A program made the translations under genes and the position numbers. Below are positions 1,621 through 32,768 of a DNA stretch of 33,983 nucleotides, piece after piece. The number at the start of each line of letters is the position of its first letter. Positions within the stretch are counted from its first letter, which is position 1. The stretch comes from an uncultured Bacteroidota bacterium. GTDB taxonomy: Bacteria > Bacteroidota > Bacteroidia > Chitinophagales > Chitinophagaceae. The stretch lies in NCBI GenBank assembly GCA_946479615.1, contig CAMLGR010000035.1, forward strand, positions 1 to 33,983. The letters run 5' to 3'. The notes beneath the pieces were generated by a model. It saw nothing but the letters and a program-made list of their open reading frames with translations. It was not told the origin of the DNA and made no database searches.

Positions 1621-1750
1621 AGTACGAAATACAAAGTAAGAAGTATGATAAAGTCCGCAGTATCAGGTACGGGGTATTAACTACGAAGTAGATTAAAAAA
1701 ACCATCTTCATTAACACAGGCTGCGGTACATCGTGCTTCGTACTTACTGA
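1621..1750. repeat. Heptamer-word array A (AGTACGA type)
   Basis: From 1621 to 1693 the sequence reads as ten consecutive degenerate 7-nt words on the pattern RGTACGA (first AGTACGA, then AATACAA, and so on), with a single 3-nt slip (TAA) at 1649-1651. At about 1731-1747 the same word appears in reverse complement (TCGTGCT, TCGTACT), so the ends can pair imperfectly. The array fills most of the 306-base gap between the anti-sigma terminator and the VanZ-like gene. It uses the same word as array B at 3778-3866. I see no coding potential here. Confidence 0.7.
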
Positions 1751-1763
1751 AATTGTTTTATTA

Positions 1764-2156
1764 TTGCGAAAAAAATTGAAGCGCTTTTTTTACTATATCC
1801 TTCCACCCATTGCCTGGTTCATCATCTCTACTATTTTATTTACATTGCCGGGATCATCATTACCGAAAGAAGACTGGCTCGATAAAATATGGATCGACAA
1901 ATGGGTACATATCGGTTTATTCGCCACCATGGTGTTCCTGTTGGGAAGGGCGGGCTACCAGCAAACTCCATTGCCGAAACGCAAGCGTTATTTTATCACC
2001 TGCTGCCTGTTATGTATTGCTTATGGAGTAGCGATCGAATTCATCCAGAAATACTTTATACCTAACCGTTCTTTCGATTTGAAAGATATTGCTGCTGATA
2101 GCCTGGGAAGCATCCTGGGCGCCTGGTATTGCACCAGGAGGTATATAAAAGAATAG
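1764..2156 (+). CDS. VanZ-like integral membrane protein
   Basis: This small membrane protein has 130 residues and four predicted membrane segments at about 12-29, 47-62, 76-95 and 110-124. The family signature is visible as DKWVHIGLFATMVFLL (45-60) and as EFIQKYFIPNRSFDLKDIAAD (92-112), which matches the E-x-x-Q...R-x-x-x-x-x-D-x-x-x-N/D pattern of VanZ-like proteins. VanZ itself contributes to teicoplanin resistance, but most members, including short stand-alone Bacteroidota ones like this, have no proven role, so a resistance function should not be assumed. The start is TTG at 1764, immediately after repeat array A. No in-frame ATG precedes the first membrane segment. Confidence 0.82.
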   Translation: MRKKLKRFFYYILPPIAWFIISTILFTLPGSSLPKEDWLDKIWIDKWVHIGLFATMVFLLGRAGYQQTPLPKRKRYFITCCLLCIAYGVAIEFIQKYFIPNRSFDLKDIAADSLGSILGAWYCTRRYIKE

Positions 2157-2245
2157 ACCCCTGTGGAAACAGGGGTCGCAACCAAAACTAACTGCTTATG
2201 AGAAAATTGACTGTCTTTATATAAGAAGAACTTTCGTTCTTTTAT
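2156..2245 (+). other. Two hairpins around a susC-like leader and 8-codon ORF
   Basis: A perfect 9-bp stem with a GGAA loop (2156-2177) overlaps the last base of the VanZ-like stop codon. Then comes ACCAAAACTA (2181-2190) and an ORF of eight codons (MRKLTVFI, 2198-2224), followed by a small hairpin (GAAC-TTTC-GTTC, about 2228-2239) with a T-rich tail. The leader and first codons closely resemble the start of the susC gene here: ACTAAAACTA at 13316 and ATGAGAAAACTG at 13334. The stretch may be a decayed susC start, a leader transcript, or simply a terminator region. No gene follows on the + strand. Confidence 0.4.
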
Positions 2246-2695
2246 GATCTCTTTCTTTTACTAACGCAAATTTACTGCCATTAGTGTGAAGTGCACTGTT
2301 AATGAAAGTTTAAAAGGTATTTTCAGGTACTTTCACTCTCTGCTGTCCACGTAAAATCTCACTTTGAGGAGTTTTTTCCGCGAAACGCATTCTGCGTTTT
2401 TTTAAGACCTTCCCACTTCACCATTTTTAATGAACTCTAAAGTATTGTATTTCTTACTTCACCTTACATAATACACAAATCAGACCAAATTAATTTCCCA
2501 AACCGGTGATTCTAAAGTTAGGAAATAATTAATTGTTAATCAGACACTAATTGATGCCAAATGTTTATGCCATACTAAATAATCCCATAACAATCGTTTG
2601 CACTATACTACAAATGGGGTATTATTATCCCGTTAAGAAATTGAATTGATACTATTATATCACATCCTGATGCTTTATGTGATATGTGAAAAGCC
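2246..2695. other. Gene-poor intergenic stretch downstream of prfA
   Basis: This 450-base AT-rich stretch lies between the end of the VanZ region (+) and the end of prfA (-), and no convincing ORF was found in it. It holds three visible items. The first is a perfect -7 type box TAAATTTG on the - strand at 2267-2274. The second is a + strand hairpin with a T-run at 2383-2403 (AACGCA-TTC-TGCGTT then TTTTT). The third is a 9-bp inverted repeat (2657-2665 with 2677-2685) just beyond the prfA stop, which lacks a T-run on the - strand. A small RNA is possible but unproven. Confidence 0.4.
2383..2403 (+). terminator. Hairpin with T-run (possible + strand terminator)
   Basis: A short stem of about 6 bp (AACGCA / TGCGTT) with loop TTC is followed directly by a run of T. 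It has the form of an intrinsic terminator for a + strand transcript, yet no + strand gene ends nearby except the VanZ-like gene, about 230 bases upstream. Confidence 0.45.
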
Positions 2696-3760
2696 TTAGT
2701 TCTGCTTCGCCAGTTTTTCGGAGTTCTCTGCAAACTGCAATGCATCGATCAGTTCGGCGATATCGCCATTAAGGACTTCCTGGAGATTATATAATGTAAG
2801 ACCAATACGGTGATCTGTAACCCTTCCTTGCGGGAAATTATAGGTCCTGATTTTCGCGCTTCTGTCACCGGTACTGACAAGACTTTTACGGTGACGTGAT
2901 ATTTCCTCTTCCTGTTTTCTTACCTGCTCCTCGTACAGCCTGGTACGCATCATCTGCATGGCCTTTTCCCGGTTGGCCAGCTGTGTCCTTTCTGTCTGGC
3001 AAATAACTACCGTACCGGTTGGAATATGCGTCAGCAATACTTTCGTTTCCACTTTGTTCACGTTTTGTCCGCCGGCGCCGCCACTTCGTGCCGTTTCCAT
3101 TTTCACATCACTTTCTTTTAATTCAAAATCCACTTCCTCCGCTTCTGGCATTACAGCTACGGTAGCCGCAGAAGTATGCACCCGTCCACTGCCTTCGGTA
3201 TCGGGCACCCGTTGCACACGATGTACGCCGCTTTCGAATTTGAGCGTACCATATACATCATCACCCGTTACTTCGAGTTGCACTTCTTTATACCCTCCCA
3301 CGGTTCCTTCGCTTTCGCTGAGGATCGCTGTTTTCCATCCTTTTCTTTCGCAATAGCGGATATACATGCGCAGCAGGTCGCCGGCAAAAAGACTGGCTTC
3401 ATCACCACCCGTACCGGCACGTATCTCGAGTATGGCATTTTTTTCATCCTGCGGGTCTTTGGGTATCAGCAATTGCCGGATATGCGCCTCTGCTTTTTCC
3501 TTCTGTTCTTCCAGCCCCGGCGCCTCTTCTTTGGCCAGCTCACGCATTTCTTCATCTTCACCATTCAGCGCCTCTTTATAGAAAACAATGTCATCCAGTA
3601 TTTTTTTATACCCTTCATAAGCCGTCACGATCTTCTCCAGGCTCCTGTATTCCTTACTTGTCTCCGCAAATTTTTTATTATTGCTCACAATCTCCGGATT
3701 GGTCAATGCCATGCCCAGCTGATCGAATCGTCCTTTAATTGCTTCCAGTTTATCTAGCAT
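2696..3760 (-). CDS. prfA: Peptide chain release factor 1
   Basis: The protein reads UAA and UAG stop codons in the ribosomal A site and triggers release of the finished peptide. It has 354 residues, the usual length for RF1. The N-terminal helical domain covers about 1-100. The catalytic GGQ loop is at 230-232 within [15 protein letters not shown]. The codon-recognition tripeptide is P-D-T (186-188) in [17 protein letters not shown]; the P-x-T form marks RF1, whereas RF2 has SPF. The glutamine of GGQ is normally methylated by PrmC, which is not in this window. The gene is divergent from the amidohydrolase, and array B lies between them. Stop is TAA. I see no frameshift and no sign of transfer. 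Confidence 0.97.
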
Positions 3761-3777
3761 AATTTCAACATTGAAAA

Positions 3778-3866
3778 AAGTAAGTACGAAGTACGAGGTA
3801 AGAAGTACAAGTACCCGAAGTTAGAACAGGCTTCAATTGTCCGGTAGCCGTACTTCCTACTTACTT
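3778..3866. repeat. Heptamer-word inverted repeat B (AGTACGA type)
   Basis: Arm 1 (3778-3795) and arm 2 (3849-3866) are inverted repeats matching at 17 of 18 positions. From 3783 the left part reads as consecutive 7-nt words: AGTACGA twice, then GGTAAGA and AGTACAA. The right part repeats the reverse-complement word. It is the same word family as array A. It lies between the divergent prfA and amidohydrolase genes, the only array in the window upstream of both its neighbours. Confidence 0.75.
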
Positions 3867-5099: not shown

Positions 5100-7016
5100 A
5101 TGAAAACGATTTTAGTCATACTTATTCTTGCTACCGTCGTTTGCTGTTTTTCGTTTAGTCTTCACCAGAAAAAAGAGTATAAAGATTTTTACGTCAGTTC
5201 TCTCAACCAGTTCAAACAGGAAGAGGAACAGCTGCTGCACACTATACAATCGGCCAACCTGTCCAATGCCGCCGATCTGGAAAAGATCAGGGCTGGTATT
5301 GTTTCCAGCCGCAGGCGGCTGAAGGCCATGGATTTCTGGCTCCGTTATTTTGACCCCATTTCTTATCGAAAACTGAATGGTCCTTTGCCGGTGGAATGGG
5401 AAACAGAAGTGTTTGAAAAATTCGAAGCTCCTTATAAAAGAAAGGGTGCTGGTCTTAGCCTGGCTGAATTATATCTCGATGAACCAGCACTTAATAAGGA
5501 TAGCCTGGCTGGGTTTATCCAGACATCGATCGACAGCCTGCAGATGTTCAGAAAAGATTCCATTTTCCTGGAACTGGACAAGGATGATCATTTCTTTTTG
5601 GCGAACCGTTTATACCTGCTGAACCTTGCGGCAATCTATACTACCGGTTTCGAATGCCCCGATACCAGCCGGGTCATTCCTGAAATGCGGGCGATGCTGC
5701 ATGATGTAAAAACGATCTATACGTATTTTAATAATGATTTTCCGGCTACACCACTGACTACCGGCTACCTGGAGCTTTACGATAAAGCAATCGCCTTTGC
5801 AGATAAGCAGCCATCTTCTTATTCTGCATTTGACCAGTTTAGCTTTTTAAAAGATTATATCAACCCGTTGTTCCGCCTCAACCAGGAATATATCCGTAAT
5901 TATGATGCGGTATCATGGAGCTTTAATGATTATGCCTTAAGCAATGATGCTCCTTCTGTTTTTGATAAGTCATTGTTCATTTCGCAGAATACAAAAGGCA
6001 TTTTTTCATTGGTAGAGGATGAAGAGGTATTGGGTGAAATAAAAAAGATCGGCAAACTTCTTTTCTACGACCCGATATTATCAGGTAATAACAAAAGAAG
6101 CTGTGCGTCCTGTCATAAGCCAACAGAATTTTTTACCGATACCAGCATGGCAACAGCGTTCCAGTTTGATGAAAAAAATCATTTGCCACGCAATTCACCT
6201 TCTTTGATCAATTCGGTTTTTAATCACCTTGTAATGCTGGATGGAAAACATATTTCTTTGCAGGACCAGGCAAGAACAGTCATGAGCAGTCATGATGAAA
6301 TGAGCAGTGATCCCGATGAACTGGTTAAAAAAATAATGAGTTGCAAGGAGTACAAGACAGCTTTTAAGAAATTTGTGAAATATACACCGGAAGAAAAAAC
6401 ACCGGGCATGAGCCATATTATTTCTGCGGTCACTTACTACTATGCCGATTTCAGTAATTATTATTCACCGTTTGATGATGCGATGAATAAAAACACGGCA
6501 ATTCCGCAGGATGCGAAAAACGGCTTTAATCTGTTTATGAGTAAAGCGATGTGTGGCACCTGTCATTTTGTTCCGCATTTCAATGGTATAAAACCTCCTT
6601 ATATCGGTTCCGAATTTGAAGTACTGGGTGTGCCGGCAGATACAGCGTATACTAAATTAAGCGATGACAAGGGCCGGTATGATGTAAACCCGGCGGAGGA
6701 AACATTGCATGCCTTCCGTACCGCTACGGTGCGCAATGCCGAATTCACCAAACCCTATATGCATAACGGCGTATTCAACACGCTTGACCAGGTGATTGAT
6801 TTTTATGATGCGGGTGGTGGTGTCGGAAAAAAACTGGATGTTCCTAACCAAACCCTCTCTTCCGATTCATTAAAACTGACACGGAAAGAAAAGAAGGACC
6901 TGATTGCATTTATGCATTCGTTGAATGAAAAGATTATTTTTGATACCCCTCCTGCTGCGTTGCCCGTTTCTACCGACAAAGCACTTAATAACCGCAAACC
7001 GGGAGGCGAATACTGA
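5100..7016 (+). CDS. Di-haem cytochrome c peroxidase (MauG/CcpA family) with long N-terminal extension
   Basis: This 638-residue exported di-haem enzyme probably reduces hydrogen peroxide or another oxidant in the periplasm. Residues 1-21 form a signal peptide. Two haem motifs are present, CASCH (335-339) and CGTCH (485-489), and the conserved distal motif YMHNGVF is at 553-559. The peroxidase domain spans about 300-615, the normal size. Residues 25-300 are an additional, mostly helical region that I cannot assign with confidence; it may be related to helical domains fused to such peroxidases in Bacteroidota. A short cytochrome c gene follows 5 bases after the stop and is a plausible electron donor. 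The gene begins 3 bases after the amidohydrolase stop, so co-transcription is likely. Confidence 0.92.
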   Translation: MKTILVILILATVVCCFSFSLHQKKEYKDFYVSSLNQFKQEEEQLLHTIQSANLSNAADLEKIRAGIVSSRRRLKAMDFWLRYFDPISYRKLNGPLPVEWETEVFEKFEAPYKRKGAGLSLAELYLDEPALNKDSLAGFIQTSIDSLQMFRKDSIFLELDKDDHFFLANRLYLLNLAAIYTTGFECPDTSRVIPEMRAMLHDVKTIYTYFNNDFPATPLTTGYLELYDKAIAFADKQPSSYSAFDQFSFLKDYINPLFRLNQEYIRNYDAVSWSFNDYALSNDAPSVFDKSLFISQNTKGIFSLVEDEEVLGEIKKIGKLLFYDPILSGNNKRSCASCHKPTEFFTDTSMATAFQFDEKNHLPRNSPSLINSVFNHLVMLDGKHISLQDQARTVMSSHDEMSSDPDELVKKIMSCKEYKTAFKKFVKYTPEEKTPGMSHIISAVTYYYADFSNYYSPFDDAMNKNTAIPQDAKNGFNLFMSKAMCGTCHFVPHFNGIKPPYIGSEFEVLGVPADTAYTKLSDDKGRYDVNPAEETLHAFRTATVRNAEFTKPYMHNGVFNTLDQVIDFYDAGGGVGKKLDVPNQTLSSDSLKLTRKEKKDLIAFMHSLNEKIIFDTPPAALPVSTDKALNNRKPGGEY

Positions 7017-7431: not shown

Positions 7432-7527
7432 TATAGAACACGGATCAAATTGGATAAACGGATATTAATTGATCTGGATAACTAATCCCCATAATATCCG
7501 TTTATCCAATTTGATCCGTGTTCTATA
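7432..7527. repeat. Perfect 36-bp inverted repeat (element C)
   Basis: Arms 7432-7467 and 7492-7527 are exact reverse complements over 36 bases, with a 24-base spacer. The core GGAT recurs at 7442, 7452, 7460 and, in the spacer, 7476, so each arm is itself made of repeated words. The element lies between the convergent cytochrome c (+) and recO (-) genes, where a hairpin could stop transcription from both sides. There is no T-run on either flank, so it is not a standard intrinsic terminator. Confidence 0.9.
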
Positions 7528-20340: not shown

Positions 20341-20430
20341 CTATGTGAAATCTATGTGCCTATGTGGTAAAAAGGCTGACTGGCGTAATCTTACCACATA
20401 GGCACATAGGACACATAGATTTCACATAGG
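20341..20430. repeat. CTATGTG-word inverted repeat (element D)
   Basis: The word CTATGTG occurs at 20341, 20352 and 20360, and its complement CACATAG at 20395, 20403, 20412 and 20423. Arm 1 (20341-20370) pairs completely with the right side if a 9-base unit (20403-20411) is looped out, so the right arm holds one more word copy than the left. It lies just downstream of gatB, between it and the TlpA-like gene. Confidence 0.88.
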
Positions 20431-20432
20431 TA

Positions 20433-21992: not shown

Positions 21993-22015
21993 TAACTACT
22001 GCAAAATATATATAA

Positions 22016-23017: not shown

Positions 23018-23055
23018 TACAGTTTTTATAATTAACTACGTTGAGTTTCGTAGAT

Positions 23056-23296: not shown

Positions 23297-23376
23297 CCCC
23301 TGTCAGACACCTTGAAATCCGCATTAAAATGCGCATATTTGACATCGCAACCCAAACTAATTAAGGAATAAACCTT

Positions 23377-23505: not shown

Positions 23506-26118
23506 TTACAGAAGCTCTTTAATGGTTTCTATCACCTCTTTTAATTTCCCTGCATCTTGCCCCCCTGCTGTAGCTAATGTTTTCTGACCACCGCCTCCTC
23601 CTTTAATAAGCAGAGCTACTTTTTCCTTGATCAATTTCCCGGCATCAAGGCCTTTTGCAGCAGCTACCGTATCGGAAATACCGATGGCGACAAATGGTTT
23701 GCCATCGATATTGGCGCAAAGCACGGCCAGGTAATCGTGAAGATTATTTTTAAGGTCGAAACATACTTTCTTCAATGCATCGGCACTGCTCACTTCGATG
23801 ATATCACCTATAAATGTCACCCCATTGATGATCTCATCTTTCTGTAATAATTCATTCCGCACCGCTACCAATTGCCGCGCTTCCATTTTTTCTACTTTCT
23901 TTTCAAGCGCTGTTTTTTCTTCCGCCATTTTTTCGATGGCTTTCAGCGGATCTTTTGATTTCAGTAATTCATTGACGCTTTTAAGCTGGTTGAGCTTTTC
24001 CGTTATATAATCGATAGCCACAGCACCGGTAACAGCTTCTATACGCCGTACACCGGCAGCAATAGCCGATTCGGAAGTAATCGTGAACAACCCGATCATA
24101 CCTGTAGAACCGACATGGGTGCCACCGCATAATTCAATAGAATAAGAAGGATCGGCTACCACTACTCTTACTTTATCACCATATTTTTCTCCGAAAAGCG
24201 CCATCGCACCCGATTTCAACGCTTCTTCCTTCGACATTTCAGTGATAACAACAGGAACGTTTTCCCTGATCTTTTCGTTGACCAGGTCCTCTACCTGTTT
24301 TATCTCCTCATCAGTCATTTTTGAAAAATGAGAGAAATCAAACCGTAATAATTCCGGCGATACCAGCGAACCTTTCTGCGCCACATGGTTTCCTAATACC
24401 CGTCGCAACGCTGCATGCAACAAGTGCGTAGCGGTGTGATTATAGGTAATCGCCTGTCTCTTCTTTCCATCTACAAGCGCCGTAACAGCAGCTGCAGGGT
24501 CAGCGGGAAGATGATCTGCAAAATGAATAAAAAGATCGTTCTCTTTCTTTGTATCGGTAATATGGATTTTATCATTACCGGAGATCAATAAACCGGTATC
24601 CCCTACCTGTCCGCCACTTTCTGCATAGAAGGGCGTCGTTTCCAGCACTAGCTGGTATTGTTCTTTTCCTTTTGCTTTTACCTTCCTGTACCTGACGATC
24701 TTTGTATCAGTTTGCAGATCGGTATACCCGGTAAAAGTTGTTCTGGATGCGTTGTTTACATCGACCCAGTCTTCTGTATCAACAGCAGTTGCCGCACGGC
24801 TGCGATCCTTTTGCTGTTTCATTTCGTCTTCGAAACCCTTTTCATCTACTGTCAACTTGCTTTCAGAAACGATCAACCGGGTAAGATCAATCGGGAATCC
24901 ATAGGTATCGTATAATTCAAATGCTTCTTTACCGCTTACAGAACCTGAAGTAGCCGATTGTAAAATGGTATCTATTTTTTTAAGCCCTTTTTCCAGCGTC
25001 CTCAAAAATGCCTCTTCTTCTTCTTTCACCACTTTACTTACAAAATCAATCTGTTTCTGCAATTCCGGGAATACATTTTCGAATTGTTTGGCCAATACCG
25101 GCACTAACCGGAACAACAAAGGTTGTTTATAATCCAGGTAAGAATAATAATATCGCGCCGCCCTTCTTAATATTCTTCTTATCACATATCCTGCCCCTGT
25201 ATTGGAAGGCAATTGTCCATCAGCGATAGTAAAGGAGATCGCACGGATATGATCCGCCAGCACACGAAATGCTACGGCTTGTTTACTATCACTGTAATCA
25301 TATTTTTTACCGGTGATCTTTTCTACCTGGCTGATGGTGCCGCTAAAAATATCCGTATCGTAATTCGATGTTTTGTTTTGCAATACTCTTACCAGGCGTT
25401 CAAGACCCATTCCTGTATCCACATGTTTCGCTGGTAATGGTTCAAGCGTACCGTTCTTTGAGCGGTTGAACTGGATAAATACATTGTTCCAGATTTCTAT
25501 CACCTGCGGATCATCATTATTCACCAATAATTTTCCGTCTGATTTTTTTCGTTCGGCATCGGGGCGGCTGTCCACATGTATTTCAGTGCAGGGACCACAG
25601 GGACCCGTATCACCCATTTCCCAGAAATTATCTTTTTTATTGCCCGGAATGATCCTGTCTTCACTGATCCATTTTTTCCATTCTTCCAGCGCTTCTTCAT
25701 CTTTGGGGATACCTTCTTTTACATCGCCTTCAAATATGGTTACATAAAGACGGTCCTTGGGAATCTTATATACTTCGGTAAGCAATTCCCAGCTCCAGGC
25801 AATAGCTTCTTTTTTAAAATAATCTCCAAAGCTCCAGTTACCCAGCATTTCAAACATCGTATGGTGATAGGTATCCACACCTACTTCTTCCAGGTCGTTG
25901 TGTTTGCCGCTTACCCGCAGGCATTTTTGTGTGTCGGCGGCACGGGCCCAGGGTGCATTTTTATTGCCCAGGAAATAGTCTTTAAACTGGTTCATCCCTG
26001 CGTTGGTAAACATCAGGGTAGGATCGTTCTTAACGACAATGGGGGCCGATGGCACTATCTCATGCCCCCTGGAACGGAAAAAATCCAGGAACTGCTGACG
26101 TATATCTGCGCTGTTCAT
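23506..26118 (-). CDS. alaS: Alanyl-tRNA synthetase
   Basis: The enzyme charges tRNA(Ala) with alanine in an ATP-dependent reaction and edits mischarged serine and glycine. It has 870 residues, the standard bacterial length. The class II catalytic core covers about 1-460 (motif near RSRGHEIVPSAPIVVKNDP, and GYVIRRILRRAARY at 310-323). The editing domain has HTATH (561-565) and CGGTH (664-668), the four zinc or substrate residues. The C-terminal DHHA1-type domain ends with GGGGGQKTLATAGG. ATG at 26116-26118 begins the conserved N-terminal helix. It is followed 3' by the convergent small membrane protein gene, and divergent from the M23 peptidase gene, a neighbour that I recall as common in Bacteroidota. 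Confidence 0.98.
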   Translation of the reverse strand: MNSADIRQQFLDFFRSRGHEIVPSAPIVVKNDPTLMFTNAGMNQFKDYFLGNKNAPWARAADTQKCLRVSGKHNDLEEVGVDTYHHTMFEMLGNWSFGDYFKKEAIAWSWELLTEVYKIPKDRLYVTIFEGDVKEGIPKDEEALEEWKKWISEDRIIPGNKKDNFWEMGDTGPCGPCTEIHVDSRPDAERKKSDGKLLVNNDDPQVIEIWNNVFIQFNRSKNGTLEPLPAKHVDTGMGLERLVRVLQNKTSNYDTDIFSGTISQVEKITGKKYDYSDSKQAVAFRVLADHIRAISFTIADGQLPSNTGAGYVIRRILRRAARYYYSYLDYKQPLLFRLVPVLAKQFENVFPELQKQIDFVSKVVKEEEEAFLRTLEKGLKKIDTILQSATSGSVSGKEAFELYDTYGFPIDLTRLIVSESKLTVDEKGFEDEMKQQKDRSRAATAVDTEDWVDVNNASRTTFTGYTDLQTDTKIVRYRKVKAKGKEQYQLVLETTPFYAESGGQVGDTGLLISGNDKIHITDTKKENDLFIHFADHLPADPAAAVTALVDGKKRQAITYNHTATHLLHAALRRVLGNHVAQKGSLVSPELLRFDFSHFSKMTDEEIKQVEDLVNEKIRENVPVVITEMSKEEALKSGAMALFGEKYGDKVRVVVADPSYSIELCGGTHVGSTGMIGLFTITSESAIAAGVRRIEAVTGAVAIDYITEKLNQLKSVNELLKSKDPLKAIEKMAEEKTALEKKVEKMEARQLVAVRNELLQKDEIINGVTFIGDIIEVSSADALKKVCFDLKNNLHDYLAVLCANIDGKPFVAIGISDTVAAAKGLDAGKLIKEKVALLIKGGGGGQKTLATAGGQDAGKLKEVIETIKELL

Positions 26119-26138
26119 ACTATGAAAGCTAAAAAGGG

Positions 26139-26169
26139 TTGACTTTTGATGCTGAACGACTTATATTTG
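26139..26169 (+). promoter_or_regulatory. Promoter of the M23 peptidase gene
   Basis: TTG (26139-26141) is followed after 20 bases by TATATTTG (26162-26169), an exact -7 box at consensus spacing. Transcription from here would carry a leader of about 115 bases containing the C-rich/G-rich hairpins at 26175-26229. Confidence 0.5.
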
Positions 26170-26174
26170 TCATC

Positions 26175-26229
26175 CCCTCCCCGGTAAAGGAAGGGAACCC
26201 CGCCTGCCTGAGCGTTAGCGAAGGAGGCA
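26175..26229. repeat. Two imperfect palindromes in the M23 leader
   Basis: A first stem pairs CCCTCCC with GGAAGGG (about 26175-26196), and a second imperfect palindrome runs from GCCTGCCTGAGCG to GCGAAGGAGGC (26202-26228). They look like REP-type intergenic palindromes. Alternatively they form structure in the 5' leader of the M23 transcript. Confidence 0.4.
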
Positions 26230-26289
26230 AAGGTAATGTTTCAAACGGCATTTGAACTCAACTCAACCAGGGTTAAACGCTTGTTTGTT

Positions 26290-27261
26290 ATGAAAAAAAT
26301 CAAATATTACTATAACACCAATACCCTTCGTTATGAAAAACTCGAGGTTCCCCTGCGCGTTAAATTGCTGCGCATCTTCGGGTTTATAGCTGCCGCCTTC
26401 GTCACTGCAGCGCTCATCTCCTATTTCGCTTTCCAGTTTGTCGGTTCTCCCAATGAGAAGTTGCTTCGTTTACAGAATGAGCGCCTGCAGGACCGCTACG
26501 AGGCTCTCAGCGACCAGGTAAAAACGCTGGACCAGCAGATGAAAGAGCTGGAAAAAAGAGACAATAATGTTTACCGTTCCATCTTCGAAGCCACACCGAT
26601 CCCCGATAGCGCCCGTGCACGGGAAATGGAGAACCAGATCGAACTGGCTACCGTAGAAAATATGGGTAATAGTGAATTATTTACTTCGCTTGTATCGACG
26701 ATGAATAATATCAGCAGCCGGATCAAAGTGCAGAAAAGTTCGTATGATGAAGTAGACGGACTGGTAAAAAATAAGGAGAAATTGCTGTCCCATACCCCCG
26801 CCATTCAACCGGTCAGCAATAAGGACCTGACACGTATCGCTTCGGGGTTTGGCTATCGCATCGACCCGATTTATAAGACCACCAAAATGCATGCAGGCAT
26901 CGATTTTACAGCGCCACAGGGTACTCCTATCTATGCTACGGCAGATGGCACGGTTAAAACTGCAGGTAATACCGGCAATGGATATGGTAATCACGTCGTG
27001 ATCAACAATGGTTATGGATATGAAACATTGTTTGGTCATATGATGAAAGTAAAAGTGAGTGCCGGGCAATCTGTAAAACGTGGTGAAGTGATTGGCTGGG
27101 TAGGGAGTACAGGTAAATCCACCGGCCCTCATTGTCACTATGAAGTACATAAAGGCGGTACCAAGATCGATCCGGTATATTTCTTCTATAATGATTTATC
27201 TCCTGATCAATTCGACCGCATTTTGAAACAAGCGGCCTCTTCCAATCAAAGCCTTGATTAG
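26290..27261 (+). CDS. Membrane-anchored M23 (LytM-type) peptidase
   Basis: This cell-wall endopeptidase or divisome regulator has one N-terminal membrane helix (about 28-50), a coiled coil (about 55-92) and a LytM/peptidase M23 domain (about 180-300). Zinc ligands are visible: H201 and D205 in HAGIDF, and H283 in HCHYE (281-285), with H281 as the catalytic histidine, so it is probably active. From ATG at 26290 it has 323 residues and starts MKKIKYYYNTNTLRYEKL, a start I know from many Bacteroidota homologues. An in-frame ATG at 26236 would add 18 residues without family character and is rejected. The alaS - M23 - MerR order supports a conserved housekeeping role in peptidoglycan turnover. 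Confidence 0.93.
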   Translation: MKKIKYYYNTNTLRYEKLEVPLRVKLLRIFGFIAAAFVTAALISYFAFQFVGSPNEKLLRLQNERLQDRYEALSDQVKTLDQQMKELEKRDNNVYRSIFEATPIPDSARAREMENQIELATVENMGNSELFTSLVSTMNNISSRIKVQKSSYDEVDGLVKNKEKLLSHTPAIQPVSNKDLTRIASGFGYRIDPIYKTTKMHAGIDFTAPQGTPIYATADGTVKTAGNTGNGYGNHVVINNGYGYETLFGHMMKVKVSAGQSVKRGEVIGWVGSTGKSTGPHCHYEVHKGGTKIDPVYFFYNDLSPDQFDRILKQAASSNQSLD

Positions 27262-27377
27262 TGAGTGGTGAATGGTCAATAGTCAATGGTGAATGATAAC
27301 CGAGCATTCATCCCTTAATGTAATAATTGAGTATTCACCATTGACTATTGACCATTCACCATTCACCGCTATTCACC
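27261..27377. repeat. GGTGAAT/GGTCAAT heptamer inverted repeat (element E)
   Basis: Arms 27267-27294 and 27333-27360 are perfect 28-bp reverse complements, each exactly four 7-nt words. Including 27261-27266 and 27361-27366 the stem reaches 34 bp with one G-T pair. The right side continues with another ATTCACC (27361-27367), a 3-nt slip (GCT) and a further ATTCACC (27371-27377). The element begins at the last base of the M23 gene stop codon and ends about 35 bases before the merR promoter. Confidence 0.92.
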
Positions 27378-27412
27378 TCGCCTGTATAACTTTTCCACAC
27401 TGTGGTACCAAC

Positions 27413-27445
27413 TTTGCTATAGAGCATACATCGTTTGTATCTTTA
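27413..27445 (+). promoter_or_regulatory. Promoter of the MerR-family gene
   Basis: TTTG (27413-27416) is followed after 21 bases by TATCTTTA (27438-27445), one base from consensus. It ends 9 bases before the ATG at 27455, which implies a nearly leaderless transcript. Confidence 0.55.
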
Positions 27446-27454
27446 TAGTAATGT

Positions 27455-27994
27455 ATGGGAAAGCCACTTACGCAAATAACATTTGAATTCAGCGCGGCAG
27501 CAGAAGAGAATACCAATACTGATGTTGTCACAATAGCGCCTCCTCCGCCAATCATTAAAGAAAAAAAAGCCATGGTAACGAATACACCCGTTAAGAAAGG
27601 CACATCAACGAGGGGCAGGCGTTCTTTAAAAGATATCGCGCTTACTGCCGATCTTATCCAGGTGCCGGAAGATGAAATTCTTTTTCAGAAACAATATTAT
27701 TCGATCGGGGAAGTGGCGACAATGTTCCGGGAAAACCAGTCACTGATCAGGTATTGGGAAACGGAGTTTGATATTCTGCAACCCCGGAAGAACCGGAAAG
27801 GAGACCGCTTTTTCCGCCCGGTAGATGTAAAGAACCTGGTGCTGATTTATGACCTGCTTCGCCGCCGGAAATTTACCATTGAAGGCGCCAAAGACTACCT
27901 GAAGAAGAATAAAAAGGCAGAAGCGAAATTTGAAATGATCCAATCCCTGGAAAAGATAAAGTCTTTTTTACTGGAGTTGAAAGCCAGTCTCTGA
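27455..27994 (+). CDS. MerR-family transcriptional regulator
   Basis: This 179-residue DNA-binding protein has a winged helix at about 81-148: YYSIGEVATMFRENQSLIRYWE (81-102), then FDILQPRKNRKGDRFFRPVDV with the usual R-x-Y/F wing. A short helix follows at 153-177 instead of a long dimerisation coil and effector domain, so no ligand-binding part is visible. Residues 1-80 are an unusually long, low-complexity N-terminal extension (APPPPIIKEKKAM). The start at M40 (27572) is possible, but the promoter box at 27438-27445 sits correctly for the ATG at 27455. Such single-domain MerR proteins beside M23 peptidases are common in Bacteroidota, and their targets are not known. Confidence 0.88.
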   Translation: MGKPLTQITFEFSAAAEENTNTDVVTIAPPPPIIKEKKAMVTNTPVKKGTSTRGRRSLKDIALTADLIQVPEDEILFQKQYYSIGEVATMFRENQSLIRYWETEFDILQPRKNRKGDRFFRPVDVKNLVLIYDLLRRRKFTIEGAKDYLKKNKKAEAKFEMIQSLEKIKSFLLELKASL

Positions 27995-28108
27995 GGCATT
28001 CATGATTCTTTGTTAAACAGATTGGCCGCTCTGCCTGCAACTTTAACAATTATCCCTTCATCTTCTGATTGCTTGCTGTTAGTTTTACACCCGCTTACAT
28101 AAACATTT

Positions 28109-28627
28109 ATGAAGAAATTTTTTATTCTCTCCGTACTGTCTGTTTTTTCTGCTCTTGCTGCTTTTTCTCAAAATCAATTTGAAGTAAGTGCAGATCCCAA
28201 AACAGGTGAAAAAGTAATGAAAGGCATTATCTCGCGTTCCGTTCTTGAAAAAGAGCCCAGTTTTACCTGGTATGCCGACGCACAAAAAATATATGCTCCC
28301 AATGAAATGGCAGTTACTGCTTTAAAAAAGAATGTTGATTCGGTCGAGTTGCTGGTATTCATGGGCACCTGGTGCGAAGATTCGCATTTCATAGTACCGC
28401 GCTTTTTCTCATTATTGGATAAAGCCGGTTTCTCATCCGATCGTGTAACGCTTATCGGTGTTGACCGTAATAAAAAAACATTGAGCCATCTTTCCGAAGC
28501 AATGAATATCACCAACGTTCCTACGATCATCGTTTTGAAAAAAGGAAAAGAATTGGGCCGTGTGATCGAATATGGCCACGATGGTCTTTTTGATAAAGAA
28601 TTAGGACAGATACTTTCTTCCAACTAA
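28109..28627 (+). CDS. Secreted thioredoxin-like protein with C-x-x-S active site
   Basis: This 172-residue exported protein has a signal peptide (about 1-20, ending LAAFSQ) and a thioredoxin fold. The active-site motif is W-C-E-D-S (C89, S92), so the second cysteine of the usual CxxC is a serine; the cis-proline is P138 in TNVPTI. A single-cysteine site fits a monothiol or isomerase/chaperone-like role, or binding of an oxidised partner, rather than a normal disulfide reductase. The first about 75 residues before the fold contain no known domain. It stands alone between the MerR gene and the convergent MscS gene. Confidence 0.85.
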   Translation: MKKFFILSVLSVFSALAAFSQNQFEVSADPKTGEKVMKGIISRSVLEKEPSFTWYADAQKIYAPNEMAVTALKKNVDSVELLVFMGTWCEDSHFIVPRFFSLLDKAGFSSDRVTLIGVDRNKKTLSHLSEAMNITNVPTIIVLKKGKELGRVIEYGHDGLFDKELGQILSSN

Positions 28628-28680
28628 CAAGTGAGCAAGCTGCTTCACTTAAAACCCAACATCTAAAACCTGGTATTATT

Positions 28681-29778
28681 TTACTTCAACCGATCGCTGC
28701 CGATGATCTTTACTTCCGTGGAGGAACCGGCAATATCGATTTTTAATTCTTCGAGGAGCTTTAATATACTGAAGTTGATCTCTTCCTTGACTGTATTATA
28801 ATCTTTCTGGGTGATCGGGCCGGTAAAATATTCTACCAATACCTGGAAAGAAGCGGAACTGATATCATTCAGTAAAACGGTAGAACTTTCGATTTCTTTT
28901 CTTTCCAGTATTTTCCGGATTCCTTTTACCAACTGATCGAGTGCAGCAGCAGTAGTTGACAATCCCGCTTCAATACGCAGGTCGCCTTTACGCTGCGTAC
29001 GTAAAGAAAGATTATCGAGAATACTATCGACCATTTGCTTATTCGGTACGGTAATAAATGTTTTCTGATCCGTACGTATGCGCGTACTTCTCAATCCGAT
29101 CTTTTCAACCGTGCCGGTAAAATTATGCACTTTCACCACATCTCCCAGGCTAAAGGGTTTATCAAAAAATATAATGAAAGAAGCGATCAGGTTTTCCAGG
29201 CTTTCCCGTAAGGCGAGTGCGATTGCTGCTCCAACAAGACTAAGACCCGTCAACAGGTTACCGATATTGGACCCGAAAACAAATTTCAGGATCATCAGTA
29301 AGCCAATAATAACAAGAATGACCTTGAAGAAATCCTTGAAAAAAACGATCAGTTGATTATCTGTTGGATCAGGCGTTTGATTAGCGCGTATGCTAAGTAT
29401 GATAGAAATAAAATCGATGATCCGTAACAAAAGACGGATAAATGAAATAATGATCACAAAAGAACCGATCGCAGTGAAAAGTTCTTTCGTAGAGATCTTA
29501 TAAATTTCTACGTTTAATTCAGCGGGGAAATTCAGTTTGTGCAGGGCGATCACTGTAACCAGTACAGCCAGGAAAAAACCCAGTGGTCTTGCTACCAGCG
29601 TGATAAAAGATTTTTTCTCTACATCTTTCCAGACACGGCGGATAAACTGGAATAAAAGAAGAGCGATAGAACGGGCAAGATATTTTTTAACGATCACTAC
29701 AAACAGGATAACTATCGCAACGATGAGATAATTAAGTAAACTATTATCCAGCCATTGTTTTTTCAAAAATTCAAACAT
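28681..29778 (-). CDS. MscS-family mechanosensitive ion channel
   Basis: This 365-residue membrane protein opens under membrane tension to release solutes after osmotic downshock. Hydrophobic segments lie at about 14-30, 60-80, 101-130 and 149-168. The pore-lining helix follows at about 173-205 (LTGLSLVGAAIALALRESLENLIASFIIFFDKPF). The beta domain comes next with the conserved GDVVKVHNFTGTVEKIGLRSTRIRT. The alpha/beta C-terminal domain ends near residue 365. The length is above E. coli MscS (286) because of two additional N-terminal helices, which is common in this branch. It is convergent with the thioredoxin-like gene, 53 bases away. Confidence 0.93.
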   Translation of the reverse strand: MFEFLKKQWLDNSLLNYLIVAIVILFVVIVKKYLARSIALLLFQFIRRVWKDVEKKSFITLVARPLGFFLAVLVTVIALHKLNFPAELNVEIYKISTKELFTAIGSFVIIISFIRLLLRIIDFISIILSIRANQTPDPTDNQLIVFFKDFFKVILVIIGLLMILKFVFGSNIGNLLTGLSLVGAAIALALRESLENLIASFIIFFDKPFSLGDVVKVHNFTGTVEKIGLRSTRIRTDQKTFITVPNKQMVDSILDNLSLRTQRKGDLRIEAGLSTTAAALDQLVKGIRKILERKEIESSTVLLNDISSASFQVLVEYFTGPITQKDYNTVKEEINFSILKLLEELKIDIAGSSTEVKIIGSDRLK

Positions 29779-29830
29779 ACTATACTGCTCCCGTAGGTCG
29801 CAAAACTAATTAAATCCCACCGGCCTGCCG

Positions 29831-30640
29831 TCATTGGAAGGAGTAAATTTCTATACTATCTTTTTTCATAGCATAGAGCCGGGATGAAGTGAAGTTAAAA
29901 TACGGACTTTGGTAAAGTTCAGCGGGCATGTTCCAGTTTTCCACCCGGAAATTGACAATGTTGTACCGATGCAGGATATTGCCGGACGACCCGTAAATGT
30001 ATTTCCCTGCTACCTTCAGGTTGTGCCAGCCGGTGATCGGGATTTTATTTTTCAATGCCCCGTAATAATCGAATACAAAGACAGCTTTTGAAGAATCATA
30101 CAGGTATACAAACTGGTCCTGGTCGTAAATCTTTTGTGGCGAAGGCGCCTGGTCGAATAACATCCGGAAATCGGGGGTTTCCTGTAACAGTTTGCCTTCT
30201 TCATCGATCTTCTTCAGTTTATTTTCCACTTCATCGTATATCCAGATCTTATTATCATACGACTGACCGATCGCACGTGCCTGCAATATGTTTTGTTTGC
30301 GCAGGTCGATAATATTACGGATAGTGAGGAATTTATCGAGCACGACAATAGTGGCGAAATCGCGGTAGTATAATAATATTTTCAATGGGTTGGAAACATC
30401 GATCAGGGTAGCTTTTCCGAATTTTTTTACATCATTGAACACACCCATCGAATCTCCGTTGGCATTTAGTTTTTTTACCTGGTTGGTGCTGCTGAGCAGG
30501 TAAATATTATCGAGATTGTCTACCGTAAAAGCAACGATATCACCGTCTATCCTTTTGAAGAATTTAAAAGATGTATCTGTTTGCGTCTTTGCCTGGGCAA
30601 AAAACAGGAGAAGCGATACTATGGTCAGAAATCTCTTCAT
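29831..30640 (-). CDS. Secreted propeller-like protein of unknown function
   Basis: This 269-residue protein has a signal peptide (about 1-19: RFLTIVSLLLFFAQAKTQ) and a series of short beta repeats such as DNLDNIYLLSSTNQVKKLNANGD, YDNKIWIYDEVENKLKKIDEEG and VYLYDSSKAVFVFDYYG. These resemble NHL- or six-bladed-propeller blades, each ending in a turn with D or N and G. No catalytic motif is seen. It overlaps the lpxH gene upstream by 4 bases (ATGA at 30637-30640), so the two are translationally coupled. A link with lipid A or the envelope is possible from this coupling, but no function can be assigned. Confidence 0.8.
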   Translation of the reverse strand: MKRFLTIVSLLLFFAQAKTQTDTSFKFFKRIDGDIVAFTVDNLDNIYLLSSTNQVKKLNANGDSMGVFNDVKKFGKATLIDVSNPLKILLYYRDFATIVVLDKFLTIRNIIDLRKQNILQARAIGQSYDNKIWIYDEVENKLKKIDEEGKLLQETPDFRMLFDQAPSPQKIYDQDQFVYLYDSSKAVFVFDYYGALKNKIPITGWHNLKVAGKYIYGSSGNILHRYNIVNFRVENWNMPAELYQSPYFNFTSSRLYAMKKDSIEIYSFQ

Positions 30641-31413
30641 GATTGATTGCGGATGATCTTGTCATCGTTTCCTTTGAAAGAAACCAGGTTCATGGTTGCC
30701 CCATCAAGGACCGCATAAGTATAATAACGTATCCAGTCACCCAAATTAATATACCGGCTGCCATCAGACAGACGAAAATCGATGGGCAGGTGTCTATGTC
30801 CAAACACAAAAAAATCAATCTTTTTTTCTTTCAGGGTGTCTTTGCAATAAGTGATCAGCCATTCCTTGTCCTCGCCGAGAAAAATCTCCTCTTTGGCCCC
30901 TGTTTGCGCCCGGCTGCGGCGGCTGAGATAATTGGCGATACCTACTCCCACAACAGGCGGAAGGATACCAAATAGCCACTGGCAGACAGGATTGCGGAAT
31001 ATTTTTTTAAGCCGTTTGTATCCATGATCGCCCGGGCCCAAACCATCACCATGACCCACCAGGATTTTTTTCCCATTTCTTTCAAATTCTTTGGGCTCGA
31101 AATAAACGGGGATATTTAATTCAGTCTGCAAATAGTCGCGCATCCACATATCATGATTGCCCACAAAAAAATGCATCGGGATGCCGGCATCGGTCAATTC
31201 TGCAAGTTTGCCCAGTAAACGGACATATCCTTTTGGCACTACTTTTTTGTATTCGTACCAGAAATCAAACATATCGCCGACGATAAATATCTCTGCGGCA
31301 TCGTCTTTTATTTCAGTAAGAAACTGTACAATGATCTTTTCTCTCTCCAGGCTGGAAGCATGGTCAGGAGCGCCTAAATGAAAATCGGAAAGAAAATATA
31401 TTTTTTTTGACAC
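30637..31413 (-). CDS. lpxH: UDP-2,3-diacylglucosamine diphosphatase (LpxH-type)
   Basis: This calcineurin-like metallophosphoesterase removes UMP from UDP-2,3-diacylglucosamine to give lipid X in lipid A synthesis at the inner membrane. It has 258 residues. Metal-site motifs are FLSDFHLG (D10, H12), GDMFDFW (D47), GNHDMW (N86, H87), GHGDG (H121) and GHRHLP (H206, H208), all in the order of the family. The helical insert LRSFL-type lid of LpxH is represented by residues about 125-195. Its length and the DMFDFWYEY segment fit LpxH rather than a generic phosphoesterase. The propeller-like gene overlaps its end by 4 bases. A 30-codon ORF lies 11 bases upstream of its start. Confidence 0.88.
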   Translation of the reverse strand: MSKKIYFLSDFHLGAPDHASSLEREKIIVQFLTEIKDDAAEIFIVGDMFDFWYEYKKVVPKGYVRLLGKLAELTDAGIPMHFFVGNHDMWMRDYLQTELNIPVYFEPKEFERNGKKILVGHGDGLGPGDHGYKRLKKIFRNPVCQWLFGILPPVVGVGIANYLSRRSRAQTGAKEEIFLGEDKEWLITYCKDTLKEKKIDFFVFGHRHLPIDFRLSDGSRYINLGDWIRYYTYAVLDGATMNLVSFKGNDDKIIRNQS

Positions 31414-31424
31414 GTCAGTAGATA

Positions 31425-31517
31425 CTATTTTGAAAACAGTTTGTATTCACCTTCTATCACACCGTCGCTTTTTTTATCAGCTGCTTTAAATAAAACGGGG
31501 AAAGAAGAAAGTTTCAT
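31425..31517 (-). CDS. Possible small ORF upstream of lpxH, 30 residues
   Basis: A short - strand ORF from ATG (31515-31517) to TAG (31425-31427) encodes MKLSSFPVLFKAADKKSDG and a short acidic/basic tail ending YKLFSK. The composition looks protein-like, and the gap it fills (184 bases, 31414-31597) is otherwise empty. It ends 11 bases before the lpxH start, so it could be a leader peptide or a remnant of a larger gene. I recognise no family. Confidence 0.3.
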   Translation of the reverse strand: MKLSSFPVLFKAADKKSDGVIEGEYKLFSK

Positions 31518-31597
31518 GCAATTTATTTGAGTATATCAACACTTCATTCCGTTTCCTGTGAACAGGAGCAAGCTGCTGATTTTTTAAGACGGCTAAT

Positions 31598-32023
31598 TTA
31601 TTTTTTCCGTCCCTTGTATTCCATCAGGTCACTGGAAGTGATAACAGGTTTGCTGCTTACATCACCGCAATACCAGTATATCCATGCAGTAACCGGTTTG
31701 CCATGACTGAATATCGTTGCCGGCAGGCGCTGGTATAAAGGAGTTTCGCCATGCTCGGGAACCACACCTTCATAATCATCCAACTGGCCAATGGCCCAGG
31801 AAAATTCTGCTTCGTTTTTGATCACATACAATTCACCCAATATGAATGTATCTTCTTCAGAAGGTATGGCCGCAGGATATTCACCCATATCAAACAGCTT
31901 TCCTTTTACTTTTGCATCGCTGACAAGGTTGAAATAACGGCTGATGTATTCATACGCCGGGCTGCGGAAACCACTGCGCAATGAACCATACACGAATAAA
32001 TGATGAATGCTGTTATCAGTCAT
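31598..32023 (-). CDS. Gamma-glutamylcyclotransferase / AIG2-like family protein
   Basis: This 141-residue single-domain protein has the family start HHLFVYGSLRSGF (glycine loop YGSLR at 12-16) and ends its core in the catalytic-type glutamate E85 within LDDYEGV. Family members cleave gamma-glutamyl dipeptides or amines to 5-oxoproline, but many bacterial AIG2-like proteins have no tested substrate, so only the fold and probable chemistry can be stated. It follows the LUD-domain gene on the same strand after 33 bases and may be co-transcribed with it. Confidence 0.85.
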   Translation of the reverse strand: MTDNSIHHLFVYGSLRSGFRSPAYEYISRYFNLVSDAKVKGKLFDMGEYPAAIPSEEDTFILGELYVIKNEAEFSWAIGQLDDYEGVVPEHGETPLYQRLPATIFSHGKPVTAWIYWYCGDVSSKPVITSSDLMEYKGRKK

Positions 32024-32056
32024 ATCCTAAAAGTACAACGCTGCGGGCAATAAATA

Positions 32057-32692
32057 TCAGGATTCTACGAGGAATACATATGCTTCTTTAGGACCGTGCA
32101 CACCTACCACCAATGTTTTTTCAATATCGGCCGTACGGCTGGGGCCCGTAGCAAAGGTGATCAGCGAAGGAAGTTTGCTGCCATACTTGTCTTTGACCAG
32201 TTGCAAAGCATCTTTCACATCATAAACAAGCTGATCGGTATAAGCAATGCAAATATGAACTGGAGCATATACGCTGGTGATGCGGCCGCTTGGTTGTGCC
32301 GCACTCATTACCACGGAGCCCGTTCTTGCCACCAGGCATTCACAGCCGGTGATCGATACATCGCAATCAGCAATGCCGGTTGTAACGATACGATCCTCAA
32401 GTTGCACACCAGCCGATTGCAATAATTTATCTTCGAGGCAATATACTTTCTTCCAATCCATTTTTTTTACCAGGCTGCTCAGTTGAAAAGCCAGCTCCTG
32501 CCGGTTGATACAATAGATAAACCTGCCCTGTAGTTTGGAAAACTGTTCGGCAAATTCTACTTCTTTTTCCTGGCTGGAGGGTTGAAATACCGATTCATTT
32601 CCTTCGCTTTTGGGAAAAGGAAGAGGCGTTGAATGACTCAACGCCTTACGTATTTTTTTTAAAATATTTTCTTTGGAAGGAGAAACGTTCAT
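32057..32692 (-). CDS. LUD-domain protein (LutC-like)
   Basis: This 211-residue protein is built of one LUD domain, seen in the segments EDRIVTTGIADCDVSITGCE, CLVARTGSVVMSAAQPSGR and the C-terminal FATGPSRTADIEKTLVVGVHG. In LutABC, LutC takes part in lactate oxidation to pyruvate, but lutA and lutB are absent here. In Bacteroidota this stand-alone LUD gene is often next to ftsH, as in this window, and its role there has not been shown. It starts at the ATG 32690-32692, about 80 bases downstream of ftsH, with repeat element F between. Confidence 0.85.
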   Translation of the reverse strand: MNVSPSKENILKKIRKALSHSTPLPFPKSEGNESVFQPSSQEKEVEFAEQFSKLQGRFIYCINRQELAFQLSSLVKKMDWKKVYCLEDKLLQSAGVQLEDRIVTTGIADCDVSITGCECLVARTGSVVMSAAQPSGRITSVYAPVHICIAYTDQLVYDVKDALQLVKDKYGSKLPSLITFATGPSRTADIEKTLVVGVHGPKEAYVFLVES

Positions 32693-32699
32693 GTGTGAA

Positions 32700-32768
32700 G
32701 TTTAAGGGTTTAAGGTTTAACAGTTTAAGAGATGTATTCTTAACCATTGAACCTTTAAACTTTTAAAC
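32700..32768. repeat. GTTTAAG-word inverted repeat (element F)
   Basis: The left half has GTTTAAG or GTTTAAC at 32700, 32708, 32715 and 32723 (steps of 8, 7 and 8). The right half (32739-32768) carries the complementary words and matches the left at 22 of 30 positions. It fills nearly all of the gap between ftsH and the LUD gene. It is the most degenerate of the inverted elements. Confidence 0.75.

Follow-up and report, generated by a model that had tools for sequence, protein, structure and literature searches.

Genomes of the Chitinophagaceae harbour numerous intergenic arrays of tandem words, 7-8 nt and sometimes 9 nt long, which are frequently inverted and have an inward polarity. Their words are dispersed over the genome and rare in coding sequences, their loops are mostly unrelated, and at orthologous positions one word is replaced by another. 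The window analysed here, a whole stretch of 33,983 nucleotides from an uncultured bacterium of this family, contains six loci, five of which may well be members of this large class and the sixth its relative. Searches of an open-access literature library listed no description of such arrays in Chitinophagaceae.

Word arrays in the window

The initial annotation had proposed six intergenic loci of one architecture, short tandem words arranged wholly or partly as inverted repeats, with only the word changing. The loci, in forward-strand coordinates, are these:

Array A, 1620..1746: degenerate GTACGAA/GTAAGAA words at 1620-1691, a spacer and a short inverted arm at 1727-1746; an anti-sigma (RskA_C) gene on one side, a VanZ-like gene on the other
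Array B, 3778..3866: GTACGAA/GTAAGAA words at 3778-3811, a loop and an inverted arm at 3849-3866; divergent genes on either side, one presumably prfA (named from our own reading of its protein sequence), the other an amidohydrolase gene
Locus C, 7432..7527: perfect 36-bp inverted repeat with a 24-nt loop, lacking 7-nt periodicity; convergent cytochrome c and recO genes on either side
Array D, 20341..20430: CTATGTG words at 20341-20370, a loop and a mirrored arm at 20391-20430; downstream of gatB
Array E, 27261..27377: GTGAATG/GTCAATG words at 27261-27295, a loop and a mirrored arm at 27326-27377; downstream of an M23 peptidase gene
Array F, 32698..32768: GTTTAAG/GTTTAAC words at 32698-32730, a 7-nt loop and a mirrored arm at 32738-32768; takes up the whole gap from a stop codon to the start of a LUD-domain gene

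The neighbouring genes confirm the claimed placement at gene 3´ ends for all loci but B: A follows the anti-sigma gene, D gatB, E the M23 peptidase gene and F the gene at 32773-33870.

The common architecture was borne out for four loci. B, D, E and F are inverted tandem word arrays above chance, and A is a direct array whose inverted arm is weak. Each of the 17 window gaps of at least 50 nt was shuffled 300 times under a Markov model. The tandem score of the gap was never reached for A and E and was reached four times each for B, D and F. The inverted-repeat score was not reached once for B, C, D, E or F, and was reached in 69 of 300 shuffles for A. Arms are complementary over 18 nt (94%) in B, 19 and 18 nt (both 100%) in D, 34 nt (97%) in E and 36 nt (100%) in C. 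Those of A pair over 19 nt at only 79%, and those of F over 31 nt at 74%, with a best short piece of 14 nt at 93%. Since the tandem scan of its gap gave no array, locus C is a plain long inverted repeat, and its earlier reading as an array of words with a GGAT core had to be abandoned.

The shuffled control did not reproduce the heptamer periodicity at the observed rate. A tandem score of 36 was reached in six of the 17 gaps against a shuffle mean of 0.88, yet one shuffle set also gave six. An inverted score of 32 was reached in four gaps, and the joint tandem and inverted threshold was passed by three (B, D and E), with a shuffle maximum of 0 in both cases; F lies slightly under the inverted cut of the joint test. 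All six regions fold better than their shuffles, with z from -3.1 to -13.9 (A -3.1, B -3.8, C -13.9). A search of the window against Rfam gave no matches at gathering score. The gap 23017-23505, which is not among the six loci, reached the tandem score too (13 of 300 shuffles) and is devoid of inverted structure.

Abundance, word families and polarity in relatives

Exact double words of the window are nearly absent from 80 relatives, and word-free detection was therefore used. The survey covered 1.98 Mb from five relatives, with 984 gaps amounting to 266 kb. These gaps contain 246 arrays of period 7 and 141 of period 8, compared with six and six in shuffles and with 11 and 7 expected at the rate of coding sequences. 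At least one array is present in 274 of the 984 gaps sampled, more than one in four. Words present in at least three gaps form four to six families per 380-400 kb, accompanied by 10-19 singletons, and same-word inverted pairs number 59.

Words of the window recur in other genera and so are not unique to their sites. D-related words were found in L040, F-related ones in L007, L010, L013 and G005, and E-related ones in 25 arrays listed outside the window, some of them counted twice. The GTTYACRN family has a constant core, two variable last letters and a mostly exact spacing of 8 nt; matches to its pattern, several per array, number 42 in G001, 71 in G002, 61 in G003 and 104 in G024. Words were shared between genera by 140 of 3000 random gap pairs versus 28 of 2000 pairs with permuted units. 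A scan for breadth in the phylum, over 20 genomes (20 kb each) and with a gap-based count marred by poor gene calls, gave nine arrays in five loci, four of them in G014, a member of the same genus as G001. In 50 kb of E. coli K-12, taken as control, there were none.

Periodic hairpins tend to be polar: the strand read inwards from either side is G-rich and C-poor in 32 of 34. Among 55 non-periodic hairpins, G exceeds C inwards in 25, falls short of it in 24 and equals it in six. Of all arrays with skew, 283 of 398 are G-rich inwards. Neighbouring pairs of unlike words (n = 76) comprise 28 G-then-C, 20 C-C, 19 G-G, five C-then-G and four ties, and C-then-G occurs in nine of 62 inverted pairs. 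In the 45 of 59 elements that could be tested, an arm fits its own partner more closely than it fits arms of the same word family at other places, by +0.145 per nt on average (p = 0.0017). The best partner is the own arm in only ten of these 45, so similarity of arms mostly reflects the shared word family; exact mirroring of arms was discarded, the effect being only modest in this comparison.

Orthologous gaps, gene ends and possible origin

A comparison of orthologous gaps had been proposed in the initial annotation. Array presence is common to relatives above expectation, mostly with different words. An array stands on both sides in 34 of 176 orthologous gap pairs, with 11.8 (sd 3.4) expected; none of 2000 permutations, for which genome, gap type and length served as strata, gave as many as 34. 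At these 34 shared gaps the words are unrelated in 25 cases and related in nine. The porZ-recO gap displays about ten word types of arrays across 12 loci. In L156, both arms there carry GTTTACC heptads, and the loop resembles by eye those of L153, L154 and L159, all three of which carry octads. Such retention of an array with its word swapped may point to a poorly studied route by which intergenic DNA is made and maintained; the shared sites could also be merely permissive ones.

Arrays start at a median of 20 nt past the stop codon. They occur in 63 of 185 gaps between convergent genes and in 43 of 208 between divergent ones; when the count is confined to gaps of at least 500 nt, their frequency is alike across gap types. 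Canonical terminators were found in 16 of 163 co-directional gaps with an array versus 88 of 397 without; in convergent gaps (24 of 62 versus 44 of 115) there is no loss, and some arrays enclose a separate canonical terminator. Replacement of canonical terminators was seen in co-directional gaps and not in convergent ones. Selection for an RNA hairpin, sought through wobble bias, gave a negative result: 49 co-directional periodic elements have 54 sense and 68 antisense wobble pairs, favouring neither RNA strand, although the test may lack power, non-periodic elements having 35 and 34. The suggested role as transcription barrier or mRNA 3´ stabiliser finds only indirect support, in the placement after stop codons and in the fewer co-directional terminators, and is opposed by the convergent gaps and the wobble test. 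Possibly, arrays act as 3´-end, two-way transcription boundaries.

The explanation we favour, with middling confidence, is slippage plus hairpin-templated copying, tolerated where SbcD is not recognisable, the arrays possibly being kept as 3´-end boundaries. Strand slippage would expand the words, and the second arm would be written and rewritten via hairpin copying, a template switching within the quasi-palindrome, so that both arms can change together. Arrays of the same word at other places in the genome would trade short tracts. The arrays would be tolerated in genomes where no SbcD hairpin nuclease is recognisable, and would last chiefly where a structure past the stop codon does no harm or serves to bound transcription in both directions. 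The architecture would thus be kept while the letters drift. Slippage with strand switching, the mechanism first envisaged for the window, is consistent with a common architecture of changing words, which is itself well supported. Hairpin copying alone, however, does not predict the many neighbours of the same polarity or of unlike words, which counts against this explanation. SbcD gave no match above cut-off in 24 genomes, several of them drafts, with weak matches under the cut-off in 15; as it is missing from array-poor relatives too, its loss is permissive at most.

Less likely, although a serious competitor, is neutral growth of slippage-prone words at permissive sites, in which case the arrays are functionless and shared sites reflect the same tolerance in relatives. 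The free replacement of words at orthologous gaps agrees with it, as do the lack of RNA-strand bias in the wobble test, the lower frequency of arrays in divergent, promoter-bearing gaps and the terminators retained in convergent gaps. Pure slippage nevertheless leaves unexplained the inversion, the inward G-rich polarity (also of unlike-word pairs, 28 versus 5) and the word repertoire common to genera.

That an enzyme spreads the arrays as mobile hairpin elements, be they akin to REP/RAYT systems, MITEs or retroelements, is improbable; a hairpin-mobilised element had been one of the alternatives in the initial annotation. Word families are scattered through the genome, as GTTYACRN is in G001, G002, G003 and G024. 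A pair of elements in L007 agrees fully in its 35-nt arms and has homologous loops, as has a pair in L040, and both pairs imply that whole elements do get copied. The MITE-like core which these pairs suggested was, however, not found among 48 loops of at least 15 nt from the five genomes: strong homology is confined to two pairs of orthologous sites, and other loop matches are short (E 0.008-0.04). The multitude of families and singletons in each genome also speaks against a mobile element. A reverse transcriptase as maker is not supported: array-rich G001 and G004 (the latter a metagenome-assembled draft) have no RVT_1 match. Nor is a RAYT supported by the surroundings of Y1_Tnp genes, which are present at 25 places in eight of nine genomes. 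Of the five such genes examined, four lack a period-7/8 array within roughly 1 kb. The single Y1_Tnp gene detected in G005 has an array directly ahead of it; one in five is what background density could give. With loops mostly unrelated and neither gene type tracking the arrays in these samples, a mobile element is unsupported.

Equally doubtful is the view that arrays are binding sites for DNA- or RNA-binding proteins recognising word families at fixed 7-8 nt spacing. The conserved core, variable ending and mostly exact 8-nt spacing of GTTYACRN fit it, as does the reappearance of families across genera. Against it, each genome has several families unrelated to one another, and words are often replaced at orthologous sites, which would require many proteins swapping their targets. 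Least likely of all is a dedicated DNA-writing process acting at intergenic breaks or fork ends. It would add G-rich 7-8 nt words, by end addition or iterative short-template copying, to the two 3´ ends that face inwards, before these are joined, and, if true, would yield inverted inward-polar arrays, with arms possibly of different words, and lineage-specific repertoires overwritten at the same gaps.

Inward polarity and word swapping at kept sites offer sharp tests of structural selection, hairpin-templated copying and end addition, and bear on palindrome survival in bacteria and transcript ending in Bacteroidota.

Comparison with known systems

Bidirectional intrinsic terminators are hairpins near stop codons. 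The arrays are likewise hairpins near stop codons and plentiful in convergent gaps, but differ in being periodic, with a G-rich 5´ arm and a long spacer. Intrinsic terminators have a GC-rich stem with a U-tract behind it; a scan of positions 20200-33983 of the window found no terminator-like site at D, E or F. MITEs have inverted terminal sequences flanking a spacer, and in this the arrays resemble them; unlike in MITEs, the loops are mostly non-homologous, the L007 and L040 pairs being exceptions. REP palindromes carry a conserved tetranucleotide tag alongside and flank a linked RAYT-type (Y1_Tnp) gene.

Like REPs and BIMEs, as characterised in PMC12306157, the arrays are intergenic, palindromic, dispersed and many per genome. 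REPs have few consensus motifs according to the same text, whereas the arms of the arrays are tandem words of several families with letters unconserved between species. Instead of one or a few conserved high-copy palindromes, we found periodic arms whose words vary within and between genomes.

The TAACTGA heptamer repeats, as described in MacGregor 2015 (PMC4679880), consist of one fixed word, form 169 direct sets and one indirect set in the main genome and lie mostly immediately upstream of start codons. That paper (PMC4679880) also notes that repeats of different heptamers stand at TAACTGA sites of Gramella forsetii and A. sublithincola, that Elizabethkingia anophelis has larger assemblages of heptamers (all three are Bacteroidetes), and that relatives are without them at the same site. 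The arrays share with such heptamer simple sequence repeats, so described, tandem 7-nt words in intergenic positions above chance. In place of a single exact word in direct orientation, they consist of word families and inverted pairs. Compared with TAACTGA repeats as portrayed there, Chitinophagaceae arrays have many words, frequent inverted pairs and inward polarity, lie mostly near stop codons, and have their word replaced at a site that is kept.

Loci of the window

The prfA gene of the window finds its best relative, at 93% identity, in a Segetibacter MAG (among the best 80 of 474 relatives), and these relatives together with the gene order place the window in the Chitinophagaceae. Since the gene order of the prfA region is common to most of the 80 loci found among these best relatives, orthologous gaps can be compared. 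Genes adjoining the following loci (forward-strand coordinates) were named by Pfam. An array here is a short word, mostly of 7-8 nt, in tandem, often with a mirrored second arm across a loop.

A, 1620-1746: tandem array
B, 3778-3866: inverted tandem word array
C, 7432-7527: inverted repeat
D, 20341-20430: inverted tandem word array
E, 27261-27377: inverted tandem word array
F, 32698-32768: inverted tandem word array

The initial annotation ascribed one word-array architecture to all six loci. This holds for B, D, E and F, which exceed shuffles. Locus A is a tandem array with an inverted arm whose score, matched by 69 of 300 shuffles, is not significant alone, and C, formerly read as a GGAT word array, is a perfect 36-bp inverted repeat devoid of periodicity. 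RNA folding is good for all six, as would be expected of any inverted repeat. Another significant inverted repeat (18982-19094), AAGAGGCTGTCTCA...TGAGACAGCCTCTT, lies between convergent genes, has a spacer of 69 nt and is not a word array; its motif forms a compact hairpin in a relative (L023, 17066-17101).

Abundance, words and placement of arrays in relatives

When 81 sequences totalling 1.51 Mb (the window and 80 relatives) were scanned without reference to any word, 84 inverted repeats emerged; one Markov shuffle gave 3. Self-match of their arms is elevated at shifts of 7, 8, 14-16 and 21-22, as well as at 1 and 24. Tandem arrays scoring at least 40 numbered 115, distributed across 36 of the 81 sequences, against 3 in shuffles. 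We then have five genomes (G001, 380 kb; G002, G024, G005 and G014, 400 kb each; gaps of 50-1200 nt), in which the proposed heptamer periodicity clearly surpasses the shuffled control: 246 arrays of period 7 were found versus 6 shuffled and 11 expected from the coding rate. Corresponding values are 141 versus 6 and 7 for period 8, and 30 versus 18 and 22, closer to background, for period 9. An array of period 7-9 is present in 274 of 984 gaps. Under a stricter score, density is 12 to 33 per 100 kb in these genomes and 0 to 31 in twelve more thinly sampled genus members (9.5-40 kb each), being zero in G013 (40 kb) and G017 (13 kb). E. coli K-12 gave no array in 50 kb. The arrays are real and abundant in the relatives sampled. 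One relative (L067, 5372-5640) carries the same architecture with a longer unit, CTACAAGAATGCCGCTCCTTCGGAG-type, in tandem and then inverse.

Each 380-400 kb contains four to six word families occurring in at least three gaps each, plus 10-19 singletons. The octad pattern GTTYACRNGTTYACRNGTT has 42, 71, 61 and 104 matches in four genomes of one genus (several per array). Further matches number 13, 3 and 2 in three other genomes, and 11 of the 18 genomes have none; read backwards, the pattern matches at most once. Each of the window's four word families, searched for as the initial annotation proposed, recurs in arrays of other genera: outside the window, GTACGAA in one array (G005), CTATGTG in one (L040), GTGAATG/GTCAATG in 25 listed arrays and GTTTAAG in 8, some listed arrays being counted twice because L038, L048 and L051 fall inside the G002, G005 and G001 stretches. 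Words are common to 348 of 3000 random pairs of array-bearing gaps within a genome and to 140 of 3000 between genomes, versus 28 of 2000 with unit letters permuted.

By gap type, arrays occupy 63 of 185 convergent gaps, 168 of 591 co-directional gaps and 43 of 208 divergent gaps; these types are somewhat error-prone because genes were called by a simple purpose-written script. The excess of convergent over divergent gaps (p 0.003) is confined to gaps below 500 nt and disappears above that. In co-directional gaps, arrays lie a median 20.5 nt from the upstream stop versus 36 nt from the downstream start (p 0.002), and canonical terminators are rarer with arrays (16/163) than without (88/397, p 0.0005); arrays may replace terminators or merely lie within operons. 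Terminators do not differ in convergent gaps (24/62 with arrays, 44/115 without) and are scarce in divergent ones (1/43 and 9/160).

Word arms enclose a separate inner hairpin at G001 197651-197780, G002 217224-217368 (joined-stretch coordinates) and L040 16626-16786; at the first two sites the inner hairpin resembles a canonical terminator. A recurrent hairpin with GGATAAGGTGTTA in its loop (L042 2038-2109, L049 1464-1540, L055 2476-2552, L073 2383-2447) is possibly a conserved regulatory element of these four relatives.

Inward polarity of the arrays

In the 5' arm of 34 periodic hairpins, G exceeds C in 32, falls below it in one and ties in one, C making up 9% of letters; the counts for 55 non-periodic hairpins are 25, 24 and 6. 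This polarity is not a matter of strand choice, because the 5' arm of a hairpin is identical on both strands. Arrays read G-rich into the gap in 283 of the 398 having skew (convergent 76/106, co-directional 162/229, divergent 45/63), with about 25% G versus 15% C inward. Single arrays do so in 95 of 143 cases, the exception being divergent gaps, whose left half holds few single arrays (3 follow the polarity, 5 do not). Among 143 neighbouring pairs, inverted same-word neighbours are G-then-C in 46 versus C-then-G in 9, and unlike-word neighbours in 28 versus 5 (20 C-C, 19 G-G). Array-free gaps show slight skew at most (-0.05 to +0.08 by half).

Replacement of words at kept sites and possible mechanism

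The comparison of orthologous gaps that had been suggested revealed array presence shared beyond expectation. In the five genomes, both members bear arrays in 34 of 176 gap pairs, not independent because these genomes share 103 gap groups; 11.8 (sd 3.4) were expected, and none of 2000 permutations, stratified by genome, gap type and length class, reached 34. Words are unrelated (score <22) in 25 of the 34 and related in 9, above the 4.7% of random pairs, so some arrays were inherited along with their word.

The best example of a kept site with a changed word is the porZ-recO gap, compared in 17 genus loci and six of the wider family, of which L066 has the gap of L157. Word arrays occur in twelve loci, with roughly ten word types represented: GTGAATC, GTTYACNN (in three species), GTTTACC, GAATTAT, a GTTGACA set of mixed words (3 of 100 shuffles reach its inverted score), ATACATGA, ACGGAATAC, GTTGATTGG, ATGTACG and AGTCGGGAAG. 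In L040 the gap carries a long inverted repeat lacking periodicity, and in L166 a weak 10-nt repeat; L155, L157, L158, L162, L167 and L030 lack arrays there. The same neighbour is missing at this site in L152 and L164, and the gap is only 2-16 nt long in 28 of 41 measured loci. L156 has heptads in both arms, L153, L154 and L159 octads beside loops alike by eye; both arms therefore seem to have changed together.

Strong loop homology between elements of one genome was not found among 48 loops, hence whole elements are not usually copied. Exceptions are L007 and L040; the L007 pair (6256-6403 and 17695-17844, one genome), with identical 35-nt arms and loops about 69% identical, is by its sequence apparently a rare case of whole-element copying. 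Arms are modestly closer to their own partner than to same-family arms elsewhere (best partner in 10 of 45). We infer that three processes make the arrays: words would expand by slippage, copying across the hairpin would act together with it, and same-word arrays would exchange short tracts.

A RAYT-like or reverse transcriptase gene, as initially envisaged, did not regularly accompany the arrays in the genomes and places sampled. Of 24 genomes, 15 lack an RVT_1 (reverse transcriptase) match, array-rich G001 among them; Y1_Tnp (REP-type transposase) was found in 8 of 9 genomes at 25 listed places, and an array adjoins it in one of five examined. In G005, an inverted GTGAATG/GTCAATG array (L269, 851-961) directly precedes the only Y1_Tnp gene found. 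The hairpin nuclease SbcD exceeds its family cut-off in none of the relatives' 24 genomes (some drafts; weak sub-cut-off matches in 15) and does so in 8 of 14 control genomes. The lack of an above-cut-off match, common to array-rich and array-poor relatives, may make long palindromes tolerable. Wobble pairs (54 sense, 68 antisense) do not point to selection at the transcript level.

Searches of largely open-access literature for the class and for six literal words gave, among the papers listed, none describing this class. Word searches of the available portions of RepRanger (Chitinophag- names, 'heptamer') and of a tandem-repeat survey (Chitinophag- names, 'heptanucleotide') gave no mention. 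Polarity and word swapping at kept sites make the arrays more interesting than first supposed. MacGregor (2015, PMC4679880) describes TAACTGA heptamer arrays as mostly direct and placed before start codons, notes that three species of Bacteroidetes have other heptamer repeats, and refers to a survey that found 7-nt units to be the most frequent kind of long simple repeat in the majority of genomes.
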